From: Paraburkholderia phytofirmans OLGA172
GTDB lineage: Bacteria; Pseudomonadota; Gammaproteobacteria; Burkholderiales; Burkholderiaceae
Direction of reading: 5' to 3'
DNA: 64,000 nucleotides
Assembly: GCF_001634365.1 (NCBI RefSeq)
Contig: NZ_CP014579.1
Location: 2,480,001-2,544,000, forward strand
Position numbers and translations under genes: made by a program
Notes under the pieces: generated by a model
The model's input: the letters and a program-made list of their open reading frames with translations, nothing else
Told to the model about the DNA's origin: nothing
Database searches by the model: none
Shown here: in pieces, positions 21,071 through 55,820 of the stretch
How positions within the stretch are numbered: the stretch's first letter is position 1
Layout: each line of letters starts with the position of its first letter

Positions 21071-21087
21071 TGTCATACGGGTGTCAT
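21071..21087 (+). promoter_or_regulatory. Pho box (PhoB site) upstream of phnC
   Basis: Two exact TGTCAT hexamers at 21071 and 21082 have the 11-bp period of the PHO box (TGTCAT-N5-TGTCAT, T-rich 3' flank). It is oriented toward phnC, ~165 bp before its ATG. This implies activation by PhoB at phosphate starvation; binding itself is inferred. Confidence 0.75.
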
Positions 21088-21155: not shown

Positions 21156-21165
21156 CGTCTAGACG
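21156..21165. promoter_or_regulatory. Putative PhnF operator upstream of phnC
   Basis: The perfect palindrome CGTCTAGACG directly abuts TATAGT (21150-21155), a possible -10. The same core, within a longer palindrome, lies before phnG at 54.6 kb. GTCTAGAC resembles HutC/PhnF-type GntR operators (TGGTCTAGACCA-like). A repressor here would occlude initiation of phnCDE. Confidence 0.6.
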
Positions 21166-21253
21166 TTGCGATGCCTTCACTCAACCGTCACAGACGCTTC
21201 CTAGAATGAGCCCCACACATGCCGGTAATGGCCGGATGCATCAAGGGGTACTT

Positions 21254-22171
21254 ATGGACGCAATTCGGGAAGCAATTCGTATCGAACGGTTGAGCAAGAC
21301 GTTCAGCAACGGCCGCAAGGCGTTGGACGAAATCGATCTGCGAATCGAGCCGGGCGAAATGGTTGCCTTGATCGGCGCCTCGGGTTCGGGCAAGTCGACG
21401 CTGCTGCGGCACATCGCGGGCTTCACGGCCTCGGATGCGCAGCCGTCGCAGATCGCGATTCTGGGCCGGCCGATCCAGCAGAACGGCCGCATCGTGCGAG
21501 AAGTGCGCAGCATTCGCCGCGATATCGGCTTCGTGTTCCAGCAATTCAATCTGGTGAACCGGCTTTCCGTGGAAAGCAACGTGCTGATCGGCGCGCTGGC
21601 GCGGCTGCCTTTGTGGCGCCGTTTGAGCGGGTGCTTTCCGAACGCGGAGCGGGTGTTGTCGATGGCCGCGCTCAATGAAGTCGGCATCGGCGAGCACGCG
21701 CGCGAACGCGCGGCCAACCTCTCCGGCGGTCAGCAGCAACGCGCGGCATTGGCGCGAGCGCTGGTGCAGCGCGCGCGCATCGTGCTCGCCGACGAACCGA
21801 TCGCCTCGCTCGACCCCGAATCGTCGCGCCGCGTCATGGAGATGCTGCGCACGCTCAACGTCGAGCATCGACTGACGGTGCTGGTGTCGCTGCATCAGGT
21901 CGACATCGCCATGCAGTTTTGCCCGCGCACCGTTGCGCTGCGTCGCGGCAAGGTGGTCTACGACGGCCCCTCTGCCGCGCTGAGCCCTGCCCTGCTCAAG
22001 AAGCTCTATGGCGACGACGCTTGCGAACTGCTCGACGAGGCCAGCGCCAATAGCCCGGCCAATCATGCGGACCACAACGCTAACGAGGAAAACGCCGGCG
22101 CAGCGGCGCAAGACGCCGCACCCACCTCGACGCGTTATGCGTTCGCCCTCAATCCGGCGCACTCGAACTGA
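21254..22171 (+). CDS. phnC: Phosphonate ABC transporter, ATP-binding protein PhnC
   Basis: The cytoplasmic ATPase that powers phosphonate import with PhnD and PhnE. The 305-residue protein has Walker [10 protein letters not shown]-loop ([12 protein letters not shown]), signature [15 protein letters not shown], Walker [15 protein letters not shown] and the switch His in [10 protein letters not shown]. There is a ~40-residue charged Ala/Asn-rich C-terminal extension beyond the usual ~260-residue PhnC. The ATG at 21254 follows AAGGGG; upstream codons of the open frame lack a ribosome site. It is the first gene of phnCDE, separated by ~29 kb from the C-P lyase genes. Confidence 0.95.
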
Positions 22172-33463: not shown

Positions 33464-33503
33464 AGCGGCCTTGCATTCACGTCGACGTGAATGCAAGGCC
33501 GCT
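33464..33503. terminator. Perfect 40-bp palindrome between gabD and a convergent DUF4148 gene
   Basis: Twenty-base arms AGCGGCCTTGCATTCACGTC and its exact complement meet with no loop. Lying between convergent genes, it most likely acts as a bidirectional transcript-end hairpin. There is no T-run on either side, so termination would be Rho-assisted or the element may serve another role. Confidence 0.65.
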
Positions 33504-46572: not shown

Positions 46573-47035
46573 GTGATGTCTCCAGTTGGTGTGCTACGTG
46601 CGCTGCGCGGCTAGCGGATATCCGCTAGCCGCGCGGGCCGCTTGCAGCCTGGCGCGAGCCGGCTGCTCCACAGCATCGACCCGGCTAGTGCAATGGGAAA
46701 CGGCCGCATAGCAGCCGTTACTTCAGATCAGCTTAGCGCAGGATGGTGAGCGAGGGGCCTGAAATTGCGGCCATTTGTTCTATATACGAACATGCGGTCA
46801 TGTATCGAACAACTAGGCTCAATAATAGGCGCGCGCCCGAAACCATGTCAAGCAAAGCCCGTCCCGAATCAGGGAATACGCGCAGGCTGGCGGCCTTGTT
46901 GCAATGGCTATGCAAAGGGTCTGAAGATTGACGCGCTCGTGCCGGCAAACGTGCTTCCGCGCCTGCCGGCATGAGGCTTTGGAGCGTTCTGCTGTGCTCG
47001 GTGTCCTTGAAACACCAGCCCCGACCTGCGCGCAA
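46573..47035. other. Intergenic region upstream of pcaF
   Basis: 463 bp holding the pcaF leader and the 3' flank of the denD remnant. Apart from the palindrome listed separately, I see no gene or clear promoter. Confidence 0.4.
46605..46634. promoter_or_regulatory. Perfect 30-bp palindrome upstream of pcaF
   Basis: Fifteen-base arms GCGCGGCTAGCGGAT and its exact complement meet at GATATC without a loop. It ends 33 bp before the pcaF start codon. It could be a regulator-binding site, a leader hairpin, or the terminator of the genes upstream; its position near the start favours a role in pcaF expression. Confidence 0.5.
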
Positions 47036-52205: not shown

Positions 52206-52400
52206 CTATCGCTCCATGGAATTCACGCCGCTTAACGCGGCAAACAGGCAAGCACTATAACCACGCCGCGTTGTCGTGTCGCGCAAATTGAAGAAGCGCT
52301 GCCGAATTACGATCCCAGCATCATTTCGCGGCCTGAGTTGCTGCCGACACCGGCGGTGTTGCAGTTCGTGTCGTGCTTGCAGGAAACGACCAGCGAGCGG

Positions 52401-52463
52401 CGGTGGCGGTGGCGGTGGCGGTGGCGGTGGCGGTGGCGGTGGCGGTGGCGGTGGCGGTGGCGG
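52401..52463. repeat. Hexanucleotide microsatellite (CGGTGG)x10.5
   Basis: Sixty-three bases of perfect CGGTGG repeats lie between the 3' end of phnN and the start of the amidohydrolase gene (both minus strand), so in the latter's upstream region. Copy number is expected to vary by slippage, which could alter spacing of promoter elements. A related hexamer array lies in coding DNA at 42.0 kb. Confidence 0.9.
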
Positions 52464-52474
52464 AGTAGTCGAGC

Positions 52475-53038
52475 TTATCGAACGTCGGGAACGTCGGCTT
52501 CCGTCTGCAAAAACGCAATCAGCGCATGCCCGGCTTCTTCCAATGCCCCGGAGTTATCGATCGTCGTGCACCGAAGCCCTTCCGGCAGCGAAAACGGCAC
52601 CCGCCGCGCGAGCCTGGCCGCGACCTGTTCCGCCGACTCACGCGCCCGTGCGCCGAGCCGGGCTTCGAGAATATGCGGCGCTGCGTCCACATGCACGACT
52701 TCCGTGTGCGGATAACGCGCCAATGTATGCTGCAAATGCTGACGCGAGCCATTGACGACGACCGTGCAACCGCGTGCAAGCCATGCATCGAGCTCGATAC
52801 CGATGCCGTAACGCAGTGAGTGGCTCGACCATTCGAGCGCGAACAGACCGAGCACCGAGCGCGCCGCGAATTCTTCGACGCTCAACGCAACATGCTCTTC
52901 GCCGTTGCCGCTCGGCCGCGTGACGTAGCGATGCGCAAAGACAATCGGCTCGCCCATCAGGCGGCGGCGCGCAAAACTCAGCAATGAATCCTTGCCTGCG
53001 CCGGACGGCCCCATTACATAGATCAATCGACCTGCCAT
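52475..53038 (-). CDS. phnN: Ribose 1,5-bisphosphate phosphokinase PhnN
   Basis: ATP-dependent phosphorylation of ribose 1,5-bisphosphate to PRPP, the salvage step ending C-P lyase metabolism. It is 187 residues with P-loop MAGRLIYVMGPSGAGKDSLL and VFAHRYVTRPSGNGEEHVAL, the guanylate-kinase-like PhnN signature. CTVVVNGSRQHLQHTLARYP and RRVPFSLPEGLRCTTIDNSG follow. The start at 53038 begins at the P-loop, two bases after the DUF1045 stop; the longer frame lacks support. It is third in phnF-DUF1045-phnN. Confidence 0.93.
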   Translation of the reverse strand: MAGRLIYVMGPSGAGKDSLLSFARRRLMGEPIVFAHRYVTRPSGNGEEHVALSVEEFAARSVLGLFALEWSSHSLRYGIGIELDAWLARGCTVVVNGSRQHLQHTLARYPHTEVVHVDAAPHILEARLGARARESAEQVAARLARRVPFSLPEGLRCTTIDNSGALEEAGHALIAFLQTEADVPDVR

Positions 53039-53040
53039 TG

Positions 53041-53763
53041 TTACTTCACCTCGCGGATCTGAAACGGCATGCGCTGCCACAGGACGAACGGCTCACCGGG
53101 CGCGGGCTCGACAAAGAGCGCCGCGTGATCGAGAGCGAGCGGTCCGAGCGCGGGCGTTTGCGCCTGCCACCACGCCACCAGCGTCGCGCGCTCATCGGCA
53201 TCGGCGAGCGAACTGGAAAGCGTCATGTGAAAACGGAACTCGTCGAAGACGTACGGATAACCCCATTCGATCAGCAATGCACGCTGCCGTTCACTCAACG
53301 GCGTGGCGAGACGGCGTGCGACGTCTGCAGCGGACGGCCTGGCGCGCAGTGCATCGAGCGTTTGCAGCGCACTGGATGCAACGTGACGAATGTTCGCTTC
53401 GCCATCCGGATCGGCAGGACGCAGTGCGACGAAATCGCCGAGCGTCGCGGCTTCGACAGGCAGCGCGAATGGACTTTGCGCGCCGGCCCATTTGCGCGCC
53501 GCTTCCAGCAGATCCTGCTGGGTAACGCCTTCAGCAAGACGGAATGGTGCAACCAGCGTGCCGTGCCAGCCATAGCGGCGCGGCGCTTCGGTCAGATCGG
53601 CCAGAGGGCGTGCCAGCGCTTCCGGCTGCGGCGACACGCATCGCTCGCCGCTTTCCGCATCACGGCCCAACCACGCCGAACCCGCCCGCCACCACGCCGA
53701 CTCGCGCGACGGCGCGTAATACACCGCGAAACGTGCCCCGGCGCCCCATACGGCGCCGCTCAT
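53041..53763 (-). CDS. DUF1045 2H-phosphoesterase-superfamily phosphonate protein
   Basis: A 240-residue protein of the DUF1045 / 'phosphonate metabolism protein' family found with C-P lyase genes. Two H-x-T motifs of the 2H phosphoesterase fold are visible: YGWHGTLVAPFRLAEG (HGT) and FDEFRFHMTLSSSLADADER (HMT). 2H enzymes hydrolyse 2',3'- or 1,2-cyclic phosphates, so it is a candidate for opening the 5-phosphoribosyl 1,2-cyclic phosphate made by PhnJ, the job of PhnP in E. coli; no phnP is visible in either phn block. Its ATG overlaps the phnF stop (ATGA) and it ends 2 bp before phnN. The role is inferred. Confidence 0.88.
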   Translation of the reverse strand: MSGAVWGAGARFAVYYAPSRESAWWRAGSAWLGRDAESGERCVSPQPEALARPLADLTEAPRRYGWHGTLVAPFRLAEGVTQQDLLEAARKWAGAQSPFALPVEAATLGDFVALRPADPDGEANIRHVASSALQTLDALRARPSAADVARRLATPLSERQRALLIEWGYPYVFDEFRFHMTLSSSLADADERATLVAWWQAQTPALGPLALDHAALFVEPAPGEPFVLWQRMPFQIREVK

Positions 53764-54518
53764 ACGTCATGCTCCACGAGCAACTGCACGCGGTCCGCCG
53801 CAAAATGCGTAAAGCCGTATTTAACCGGCGTGCCTTCCAGATCGACGTCGACGTTTTCGACCCACAACACCGGCTGCTGCCGGTTGATATTCAAACGCCG
53901 TGCCACCTCCGGCTCAGGCAAGACGCTGCCAATACGGCTCCACTTGCGCAAATAATCGGTCACGCCCAATTCAGCCATCGACTTCGTAATGCTGCCGGTG
54001 CGCCGCAGCACCTCCGGCAAGTCCGGAAAACGCGCAGCCGGATACCAGTTGCGCGCGAACGTGAGCGGCACGCCATCCGATTCATGCAGCGTCTCGATCC
54101 GGTAGACCGGCGCACCCGCCCGCAGGCTGAGCGCCTTCGCGACATTCGGCTCGGCCTTCACGCGTGCGGCCGACAACATCGTGCCCGCCGCCGCATGATG
54201 CTGCTGACGCAAGTTTTCCGTAAACCGCGTGCGCCGGCCAATCGTATAGTCGATCGCGCCGGGTTGCACGAACGTGCCACGCCCCTGCTCGACGCTGACG
54301 AGACCCAGTGCGGCCAGACCGAGCATGGCGCGGCGCACGGTATGCCGGTTCACGTCGAAGCGCTTGGCCAGTTCGCCTTCGCTCGGCAAACGGCCTTCTT
54401 CGCCGAAGCCGCTCGCGGCGATTTCCGCCGCCAGAATCCGCTCGATCTGCCGCCAGACGGCAACGCCCGCGCCGCGTTCGAGCAGCGTGCCCGGCGTCGC
54501 GTTGTCGTTCGATGTCAT
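53760..54518 (-). CDS. phnF: GntR/HutC-family phosphonate regulator PhnF
   Basis: A 252-residue repressor-type regulator. The N-terminal winged HTH is RLPSEGELAKRFDVNRHTVR, then RAMLGLAALGLVSVEQGRGT, and a UTRA ligand-binding domain (residues ~90-245) contains FTENLRQQHHAAAGTMLSAA and APVYRIETLHESDGVPLTFA. It is divergent from phnGHIJKLM and first in its own operon. The palindromes before phnG and phnC are its likely targets. The phnF start codon itself lies inside a Pho box that points toward phnG. Effector unknown, possibly phosphate or a C-P lyase intermediate. Confidence 0.92.
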   Translation of the reverse strand: MTSNDNATPGTLLERGAGVAVWRQIERILAAEIAASGFGEEGRLPSEGELAKRFDVNRHTVRRAMLGLAALGLVSVEQGRGTFVQPGAIDYTIGRRTRFTENLRQQHHAAAGTMLSAARVKAEPNVAKALSLRAGAPVYRIETLHESDGVPLTFARNWYPAARFPDLPEVLRRTGSITKSMAELGVTDYLRKWSRIGSVLPEPEVARRLNINRQQPVLWVENVDVDLEGTPVKYGFTHFAADRVQLLVEHDV

Positions 54519-54529
54519 GGTGCTGTCAT
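54513..54529 (+). promoter_or_regulatory. Pho box upstream of phnG, overlapping the phnF start codon
   Basis: TGTCAT at 54513-54518 and 54524-54529, 11 bp apart, the second preceded by C as in the consensus CTGTCAT. It is oriented toward phnG. The first hexamer contains the complement of the phnF ATG, so PhoB bound here could also affect phnF transcription. Confidence 0.7.
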
Positions 54530-54632
54530 TCCCTTGGGTTCAAATATTCGCTATGCCATGCATTGTAGTGCGCAAGCCGTGATGGAAATGTGAAACGGCG
54601 GCCATGCGCGACAACGCTCGACAAGCATACCC

Positions 54633-54652
54633 CTAAACGTCTAGACGTTTAG
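54633..54652. promoter_or_regulatory. Putative PhnF operator upstream of phnG
   Basis: A perfect 20-bp palindrome, CTAAACGTCT with its exact complement, centred on CGTCTAGACG. Its 10-bp core is identical to the site before phnC at 21156-21165. It lies between phnF and phnG, 48 bp before the phnG ATG, the expected repressor position. Confidence 0.7.
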
Positions 54653-54699: not shown

Positions 54700-55185
54700 A
54701 TGAGTGCCACTTCCGCCTCGCCTTCCTCTGCCATGCGGCGCGCATGGATAGCCGTGCTGGCCCGCACGCCGCGCGCCGATCTCCAAGCCGCACTGGATCT
54801 CGCGCTGCAAGGCGTCCCGCCCCCCGCTTACGACTGGCTGCGGCCACCCGAAATCGGGCTCGCAATGGTGCGCGGCCGCGTTGGCGGCAGCGGCGACCCG
54901 TTCAATCTCGGCGAAGCCACCGTCACGCGCGCCACGTTGCGTTTGCGCGTCACCGCTGACGCAACCGCAGCCGTCGGTGTTGCATGTCATCTAGGCCGCG
55001 ACCGCCGCCGCGCCGAACTGGCGGCGCTGGCCGACGCGCTGCTGCAAATGCCCGAGCATCACGCTGCCTTGCATCAGCAATTGATCGAGCCGTTTGCCGC
55101 ACGGCAGGCCGCGCAACGCGCCGAGCGCAGACAGGACGCTGCAGCCACGCGAGTCGAATTCTTCACGATGGTCCGGGGCGACTAA
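54700..55185 (+). CDS. phnG: C-P lyase core subunit PhnG
   Basis: Part of the PhnGHIJ core that converts ATP and phosphonate to 5-triphosphoribosyl phosphonate and then breaks the C-P bond. It is 161 residues. RRAWIAVLARTPRADLQAAL and WLRPPEIGLAMVRGRVGGSG are the PhnG signature, with GEATVTRATLRLRV following. The ATG at 54700 has AGGA 6 bp upstream; the open frame begins 13 codons earlier. Its stop overlaps the phnH start (TAATG). First gene of phnGHIJKLM. Confidence 0.94.
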   Translation: MSATSASPSSAMRRAWIAVLARTPRADLQAALDLALQGVPPPAYDWLRPPEIGLAMVRGRVGGSGDPFNLGEATVTRATLRLRVTADATAAVGVACHLGRDRRRAELAALADALLQMPEHHAALHQQLIEPFAARQAAQRAERRQDAAATRVEFFTMVRGD

Positions 55186-55820
55186 TGGAAAACTCGCCGA
55201 TTGCATTGTCTACTTCGTTGTCCAGTTCATTGGCTACATTGACGCCCGGTTTCGCAGACCCGGTGCACGACACCCAGGCGGTATTCCGTACCTTGCTCGA
55301 CGCGCTATCGCGTCCCGGCACGGTGGGCGTCGTCGAAAGCGGTTTGCCCAAAGTACGGGCCACCCGCGCCGAGCTCGCCGCATTCGCCGCGCTGCTGACA
55401 CTGTGCGACTACGCCACGCCCGTCTGGCTCGCACAAGCCGACACCGCGCTGGCTTCGGCACTGCGGTTTCATACCGGCGCGCCGCTCGTCGACGAACCGG
55501 GACTTGCCGCCTTCGCCTATATCCACGACGCAAGCGCAATGCCGGCGCTGGAAAGCTTTCCGCTTGGCGAAGCGGAGTCCTCTGAGCACTCGGTGACGTT
55601 GCTGATCCGCGTCGAAGCACTGACGGGCGGCACGCCGGTCGTGCTGAGCGGCCCCGGCATTGCGCACACCACGACGATCGCGCCGGCCGGCCTGCCCGGG
55701 CATTTCTGGCGCGAACGCGCCGCCCTCGCGCCGCTCTTCCCGTGCGGCATCGATTGTTATCTCGTCTGCGGCAGCTCGTTGATCGGCCTGCCGCGCACAA
55801 CTCAAGCGAAGGTGAACTGA
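55185..55820 (+). CDS. phnH: C-P lyase core subunit PhnH
   Basis: A 211-residue dimer-forming subunit of the PhnGHIJ core. GFADPVHDTQAVFRTLLDAL is the typical PhnH start, followed by SRPGTVGVVESG and LLTLCDYATPVWLAQADT. GIDCYLVCGSSLIGLPRTTQ is the conserved C-terminus. It overlaps phnG by one base and phnI by one base, so translation is tightly coupled. The N-terminal ~20 residues are Ser/Leu-rich. Confidence 0.94.
   Translation: MENSPIALSTSLSSSLATLTPGFADPVHDTQAVFRTLLDALSRPGTVGVVESGLPKVRATRAELAAFAALLTLCDYATPVWLAQADTALASALRFHTGAPLVDEPGLAAFAYIHDASAMPALESFPLGEAESSEHSVTLLIRVEALTGGTPVVLSGPGIAHTTTIAPAGLPGHFWRERAALAPLFPCGIDCYLVCGSSLIGLPRTTQAKVN

Follow-up and report, generated by a model that had tools for sequence, protein, structure and literature searches.

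The regulator gene phnF and the C-P lyase gene phnG of Paraburkholderia phytofirmans OLGA172 probably share a single control region, in which a PhoB box holding the start codon of phnF would drive a phnG promoter that faces the phnF promoter, with mutual hindrance between the two. Five things are seen directly in the DNA: the box, a fixed gap of 10 bases from the box to a T..AAT element, a TACAAT element that opposes it, a palindrome, and the conservation of all of these. PhoB control of phnG is very likely, control by PhnF and overlap of the two promoters are likely, and their mutual hindrance is plausible.

Genes of the phnF-phnG locus

The window, meaning the whole stretch of 64,000 nucleotides that was analysed, lies on a 3.5-Mb contig of an 8.57-Mb genome. 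On the minus strand, phnF (53760..54518) encodes a GntR/HutC-family regulator that scored 248.5 bits against TIGR02325 (cut-off, 156.8); among 27 matches in the genome, PhnF was the single protein over this cut-off. The end of phnF is overlapped by a gene for a putative phosphonate metabolism protein (53041..53763, minus strand; TIGR03223, 256.6 versus 248.95 bits), the end of which is in turn overlapped by phnN, encoding ribose 1,5-bisphosphokinase (52475..53080, minus strand; TIGR02322, 210.6 versus 156 bits). Excerpts of two reports describe phnN as an accessory gene of the phosphonate pathway (PMC10574752, PMC7866108). On the plus strand, the C-P lyase operon begins with phnG (54700..55185; TIGR03293, 173.8 versus 89 bits) and continues with phnH (55185..55820; TIGR03292, 194.9 versus 91.5 bits). 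One protein in the genome, encoded about 4 kb from pstS, exceeded the TIGR02154 cut-off for PhoB. Just beyond the end of phnN, a mismatch-free GGCGGT repeat of 10.8 copies occupies 52399-52463.

A predicted Pho box over the phnF start codon

Pho box 1, TGTCAT-GGTGC-TGTCAT, is located at 54513..54529 on the plus strand and is the predicted PhoB site of the phnG promoter. Its hexamers occupy 54513-54518 and 54524-54529, exactly where the earlier note on this DNA had placed them. The start codon of phnF appears as CAT at 54516-54518 and is read as ATG on the minus strand, forming bases 4-6 of the first half-site, and codon 2 is ACA. The same note had described the Pho box as covering the phnF initiation codon, and this was observed in 110 of 110 Paraburkholderia loci, with the first half-site ending on the start codon.

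The exact pair TGTCAT-N5-TGTCAT is found twice in the 8.57-Mb genome, upstream of phnG and phnC only, compared to 0.25 occurrences expected from base composition (0.0019 in the window; both strands), and a chance origin was rejected on these numbers. Across 58 genomes of the genus, the exact pair gave 92 matches versus 5 for the reversed pattern. The five genomes among these 58 that lacked the exact pair all lacked phnG as well, three of the phnG-lacking genomes having been identified by elimination. When two mismatches were allowed, the genome held 293 matches versus 114 for the reversed pattern; with three mismatches, the frequency of the pattern in the window was no higher than in shuffles. 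Only exact or matrix-scored sites are informative here, and looser matching is not.

To avoid circularity, the half-site matrix was trained solely on pstS promoters of the genus, using 22 distinct promoters from the 26 of 30 loci that matched; the other four (L145, L146, L147, and L173) did not match the four-half-site pattern. These promoters read TGTCAC-N5-TTTCAC-N4-AGTCAC-N5-TGTCAC-N10-TAAGCT, with variations. Scored with this matrix, the TGTCAT pairs upstream of phnG and phnC tied for the top score among all window positions on both strands. Box 1 has the two TGTCA-type half-sites, 11 bp apart, of a PhoB-type site, as an exact pair with the tied top score. The signals of the earlier note, hexamers and palindrome alike, are real.

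On the opposite strand, any TGTCAT-N5-TGTCAT forms a frame of four codons, ATG ACA NNN NNA TGA, with a stop that overlaps the next ATG. Here this frame is at 54515-54529, and the overlapped ATG is the phnF start.

Conservation of the box and of its overlap with phnF

The phnG gene was present in 121 of 144 genomes of the genus. Counts were made first on 110 Paraburkholderia loci and then on 149 loci, to which Paraburkholderia contributed 118 and nine further genera of the family 31; the 31 were taken from among the matches and are not all of them. The 149 were drawn from 150 loci, and the one dropped (L214) was the second phnG of genome G009, which has no divergent phnF. This second copy is 55% identical, and in the 1.2 kb around it neither a divergent phnF nor a strong Pho box nor the operator was found. 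In the first set, phnF was divergent from phnG in 106 of 110 loci, which are all those where tblastn found both genes; at the remaining four, tblastn found only phnF in the stretch.

A lack of hexamer conservation in relatives, which the earlier note had named as evidence against its reading, was not seen at phnG, where the TGTCAT pair was exact in 110 of 110 Paraburkholderia loci. Codon 2 of phnF was ACA in all 110, although ACA made up 70 of 1238 Thr codons when counted from codon 11 onward; the fixation of a codon that is rare later in the gene suggests that it is the DNA sequence that is constrained, not the protein. The spacer was GGTGC in 103 of the 110 Paraburkholderia loci and varied in Caballeronia. 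A Pho box alone does not account for a spacer so nearly fixed in Paraburkholderia.

A start codon can be supplied by a Pho half-site, since TGTCAT read on the opposite strand is ATGACA. The start codon coincided with bases 4-6 of the first half-site in 15 of 15 loci from eight genera, regardless of the length of the N terminus: the conserved ERG motif of PhnF was preceded by 5, 12, 13, 16, 21, 22, or 28 residues in these loci, with the phnF start of genera g14, g18, g25, and g11 picked by the analyst among in-frame ATGs. Within a set of 80 loci from named relatives, an in-frame ATG was likewise present at the half-site position in 46 of 46 loci of Paraburkholderia, Caballeronia, Burkholderia, and Pandoraea, a set that partly repeats genomes already counted. 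That the start codon stays put while the N terminus changes in length suggests either a function or a trap. A likely activator half-site here also provides the start codon of phnF, the gene read in the opposite direction, and has been retained despite these changes.

Among the more distant relatives of that set of 80, an in-frame ATG fell on bases 4-6 of the best box in just 4 of 34 loci, and the overlap is therefore not needed for phn control generally. At five of six Cupriavidus loci and both g16 loci (2/2), the best box lay away from the phnF start, still with a -10-like hexamer at N10; at the Cupriavidus locus L198, the best box was over the phnF start. An NGTCAT hexamer still ended at the start of phnF in all six Cupriavidus loci, though in most of them it had no good partner.

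The predicted phnG promoter

Exactly 10 bases past Pho box 1 lies the predicted -10 element of phnG, TCAAAT (54540..54545, plus strand), the position of which puts the predicted transcription start region at 54550..54553 on the plus strand, near 54552. In 142 of 149 loci, a T..AAT element stood at offset 10 from the best box, while each of the other offsets from 0 to 19 accounted for at most one locus. Six of the seven exceptions were Cupriavidus (four with TCTAGT, one with TGTAGT, and one with CGATTT), and the seventh was g25, with N9. The N10 distance matches that of the genus pstS promoters to their own -10 element. A search for a -35 element of phnG at 15-19 bp gave no match above 2 of 6 bases. 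What was found, a -10 element 10 bases past the second half-site, is the arrangement of PhoB-type promoters, for which no -35 is needed. Box-like pairs were present upstream of phnG also in Achromobacter and other more distant relatives, and in several of the distant relatives the N10 hexamer was unlike a -10. Judging from its top score, its N10 distance to a -10 element, and its conservation across genera, box 1 looks like a PhoB-type site that drives phnG.

These data bear on a different reading of the hexamers, namely, that they are conserved as the translation-start context of phnF (ATGACA) and form no PhoB site. We regard this as very improbable. Both hexamers do fall in the leader and start of phnF, and the spacer between them is near-fixed too within Paraburkholderia. 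A translation context, however, does not account for the N10 distance to T..AAT, which lies on the other strand and holds in 142 of 149 loci, for the retention of the hexamers while the spacer changes in Caballeronia, or for the presence in other genera of the same grammar at a distance from the start codon; the fixation of ACA at codon 2, rare later in the gene, also speaks against it. Translation context alone was rejected on the N10 T..AAT, the Caballeronia spacer change, and the boxes of other genera that lie off the start.

A predicted opposing phnF promoter and a second Pho-like box

The predicted -10 element of phnF, TACAAT (54562..54567, minus strand), faces the phnG promoter. Its plus-strand form, ATTGTA, was found at a distance of 41-51 bases from where the Pho box begins in 138 of 149 loci; from this element, the phnF transcript is predicted to start near 54555. 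The opposing conserved -10 elements, 54540-54545 on the plus strand and 54567-54562 on the minus strand, have centres 22 bp apart; judged from sequence alone, two close and opposing conserved -10-like elements of this kind constitute a face-to-face arrangement. In a search for a phnF -35 element, TTGACA was matched at 2, 0, and 0 of 6 bases at distances of 16, 17, and 18 bp. The hexamer TTTCCA, 15 bp from the -10, matches 4 of 6 -35 bases, and with it phnF might do without an activator.

Pho-like box 2, TTTCAC-ATTTC-CATCAC (54579..54595, minus strand), is a candidate PhoB site 11 bases upstream of the phnF -10 element. It ranked 10 in the window by the pstS-trained matrix; its half-sites are spaced by 11 bp, its second half-site (CATCAC) is weak, and its distance to the -10 is N11, not N10. 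Both TCA cores were kept in 116 of 138 loci and one was lost in 22 of 138; 15 of these 22 loci are Paraburkholderia, with CGCCAC or CGCCAT as the second half-site. The combined score of box 2 and the -10, with weights that were chosen by the analyst, was equalled by 0 of 400 shuffles and by 10 of 1000 random pieces of the window. Among 33 distant loci, none combined a comparable box with a 5-of-6 -10. Box 2 is weak, and we propose it as the PhoB site of phnF as a candidate only.

Boxes 1 and 2 are nearly mirror images about 54554. It is possible, if rather unlikely, that the region works as a mirror-symmetric switch, with opposed PhoB-type promoters around this one centre, each PhoB site inside the transcript of the other promoter, and the stronger site in the start codon of the regulator. 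A phosphate-starved cell would then make either C-P lyase or the regulator and PhnN at a given moment, and bursty or mixed phosphonate use would be expected in Paraburkholderia and related genera.

The modules of the region might also be independent, PhoB activating phnG while phnF is expressed constitutively from TACAAT and the overlap arises incidentally because the intergenic region is short; this reading is possible but not probable. It draws on the reading of TGTCAT as ATGACA in reverse, which makes extension of PhnF to that ATG easy, on the variable spacing between modules, and on TTTCCA, which could serve as a weak -35 element of phnF. Yet the start codon has held its exact place within the half-site despite several changes in N-terminal length, and with the centres of the facing -10 elements 22 bp apart, physical interference would be expected.

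The palindrome as a predicted PhnF operator

The perfect 20-bp palindrome that the earlier note had reported at 54633-54652 was borne out: CTAAACGTCTAGACGTTTAG (54633..54652, no strand) is one of four perfect palindromes of at least 16 bp in the window and is the predicted PhnF operator. Two other perfect palindromes, at 33464-33503 (40 bp) and 46605-46634 (30 bp), are possibly terminators.

Within the 110 phnG loci, GTCTAGAC was exact in 107, and the other three carried ATCTAGAC. The core CGTCTAGACG occurs four times in the genome: at the two phn sites, within a 669-amino-acid open reading frame (ORF), and at the 3' end of an ORF. The HutC-family operator consensus given in excerpts of PMC4494728 is NyGTMTAKACNy, and GTCTAGAC fits it. 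Of the genomes with phnG, 113 of 121 contained ACGTCTAGACGT, compared to 5 of 23 without phnG; the corresponding figures for a reversed control of ACGTCTAGACGT were 64 of 121 and 11 of 23. We thus predict that the palindrome is a HutC/PhnF-type operator, the link to PhnF coming from this co-occurrence with phnG.

The operator lies 99 to 121 bases from the phnF start in the 110 loci. Since the spacing between operator and box differs by as much as 22 bp among loci, no fixed geometry between PhnF and PhoB is indicated. In OLGA172, it spans +82 to +101 relative to the predicted phnG start and -78 to -97 relative to that of phnF. A site that far upstream of phnF likely acts on phnG, and action at +82 to +101 is likely to be that of a roadblock. 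A repressor at +82 to +101 can be a roadblock only, which is a less usual mode and counts against the model.

The phnC region

A second TGTCAT pair, TGTCAT-ACGGG-TGTCAT (21071..21087, plus strand), forms a distal Pho box upstream of phnC with the tied top score in the window. A proximal Pho box, CTTCAC-TCAAC-CGTCAC (21175..21191, plus strand), ranks 4 in the window, and the predicted -10 element of phnC, TAGAAT (21202..21207, plus strand), lies 10 bases past it. Upstream of phnC there is also the core CGTCTAGACG of a predicted PhnF operator (21156..21165, no strand).

Conservation was counted at phnC in the closest 30 of 118 phnD matches, so that it in part reflects recent kinship. Within these closest 30 of 118, the half-sites of the proximal box were invariant (30/30), and the operator core stopped 9 bases short of this box; TAGAAT stood at N10 from the proximal box in 30 of 30, and GTCTAGAC was present upstream of phnC in 30 of 30. 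The distal box was exact in 13 of these closest 30 and lost in 3. The pair at 21071 was accordingly rejected as the main promoter element of phnC in favor of the box at 21175, with its N10 -10 and its 30/30 record among the closest 30. The earlier note had spoken of the same pair of signals; the pair does exist at phnC, but among the closest 30 of 118 it is less conserved (13/30 exact) than the box at 21175 (30/30). A TATAGT that abuts the phnC operator was considered as the -10 element of phnC and lacks the N10 distance to a box.

The phnC gene (21254..22171, plus strand; TIGR02315, 283.4 versus 266.1 bits, for the frame from 21206) likely starts at the ATG at 21254 rather than at 21206 if the predicted -10 at 21202-21207 is used. 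The ATG at 21254 is preceded by AAGGGG.

A model for PhoB and PhnF control

During phosphate starvation, PhoB-P bound at 54513-54529 would bring RNA polymerase to the -10 at 54540, and phnG mRNA would begin near 54552. The phnF promoter (-10 at 54567-54562), with no good -35 at 16-18 bp, would likely be aided by PhoB at the weaker site, 54595-54579. Two polymerases would share the same DNA, and each PhoB site would lie at about +27 to +44 within the other transcript, so that the promoters should compete. With a polymerase footprint of the usual size, both promoters would not be occupied simultaneously, and the stronger box 1 would tilt the competition toward phnG. Transcription of phnG would be halted by PhnF at 54633-54652 (+82 to +101) for as long as no inducer connected with phosphonate degradation frees the site. 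At phnC, PhnF would act from a position immediately ahead of the proximal Pho box.

The earlier note had favored a different switch, in which PhoB, by binding across the phnF start codon, would turn phnG on and keep phnF from being transcribed, such that PhnF falls in phosphate starvation and phnG is derepressed. Its first part agrees with the PhoB-type phnG site and the conserved overlap, and a block is in keeping with the position of box 1, which spans +27 to +43 relative to the predicted phnF start, together with the conservation of the start-codon overlap. As a whole, this switch is unlikely. The phnF gene is the first of several overlapping genes, the last of which, phnN, is accessory to the same pathway, and to shut such an operon during phosphate starvation would be odd. 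In addition, the phnF promoter has a PhoB-like site of its own, and a substrate sensor that is gone in starvation could not sense. Because of phnN in the operon and box 2, a one-way shut-off of phnF is the less likely part of that proposal, and two competing promoters seem likelier than a simple PhoB shut-off.

Comparison with known systems

As in Pho regulon promoters such as pstS of the genus and the phn operon of E. coli, TGTCA(C/T)-type half-sites spaced by 11 bp are followed here after 10 bases by a predicted -10 element with no good -35, and phosphonate genes are the likely Pho targets. Unlike in pstS and E. coli phn, the box here holds the start codon of a divergent regulator and is opposed by a second, predicted promoter. 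E. coli phnF sits within the phn operon. The Pho box of that operon is located upstream of phnC, according to excerpts of PMC10574752.

In Mycobacterium smegmatis, as excerpted from PMC7866108, PhnF represses the divergent phnDCE. The likeness is that a GntR-family gene diverges from phn genes with repressor sites, predicted ones in the present case, in between; in that system, as the excerpts present it, a phosphate transporter is controlled by two sites within a bidirectional promoter region, whereas here one palindrome stands beside a C-P lyase operon, with a Pho box on the start codon. The scbA-scbR pair of Streptomyces coelicolor, as described in excerpts of PMC3134472, has, like the arrangement predicted here, face-to-face overlapping promoters with one gene encoding a repressor; it has 53 bp of overlapping DNA, in contrast to a few bases of predicted transcript overlap here, and involves other regulators. 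HutC-type divergons, in the excerpted survey of Suvorova et al. 2015 (PMC4494728), resemble phnF-phnG in having a single site between divergent genes, nearer to the structural operon. Single sites in that survey, as excerpted, usually control both genes, while the site here lies 78-97 bp ahead of the predicted start of phnF transcription.

In a literature search of titles and abstract openings, no paper describing the phnF-phnG region was found. We present as new the predicted N10 -10 of phnG, the putative facing phnF promoter, the start codon fixed in a half-site, the candidate box 2, and the candidate phnC box at 21175. Through C-P lyase, soil bacteria use phosphonates, including herbicide residues; to our knowledge, how general phosphate hunger is combined with substrate sensing has been little worked out. 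Predictions at the level of single bases, with two start sites and three binding sites conserved in many species, make dual PhoB-PhnF control directly testable.

Related loci

In Pandoraea capi (L242, 334-1272), a relative of PhnF that is 75% identical to the protein of the window diverges from a phosphonate-type substrate-binding-like gene, and the intergenic region again contains the box, TCAAAT at N10, and GTCTAGAC. In Caballeronia udeis (L250, 3-1281), the sequence divergent from phnF is a short PhnL-like fragment, and a phnM-like gene comes next. It looks as though phnG to phnK were lost here, while sites resembling the box and the operator are still present.
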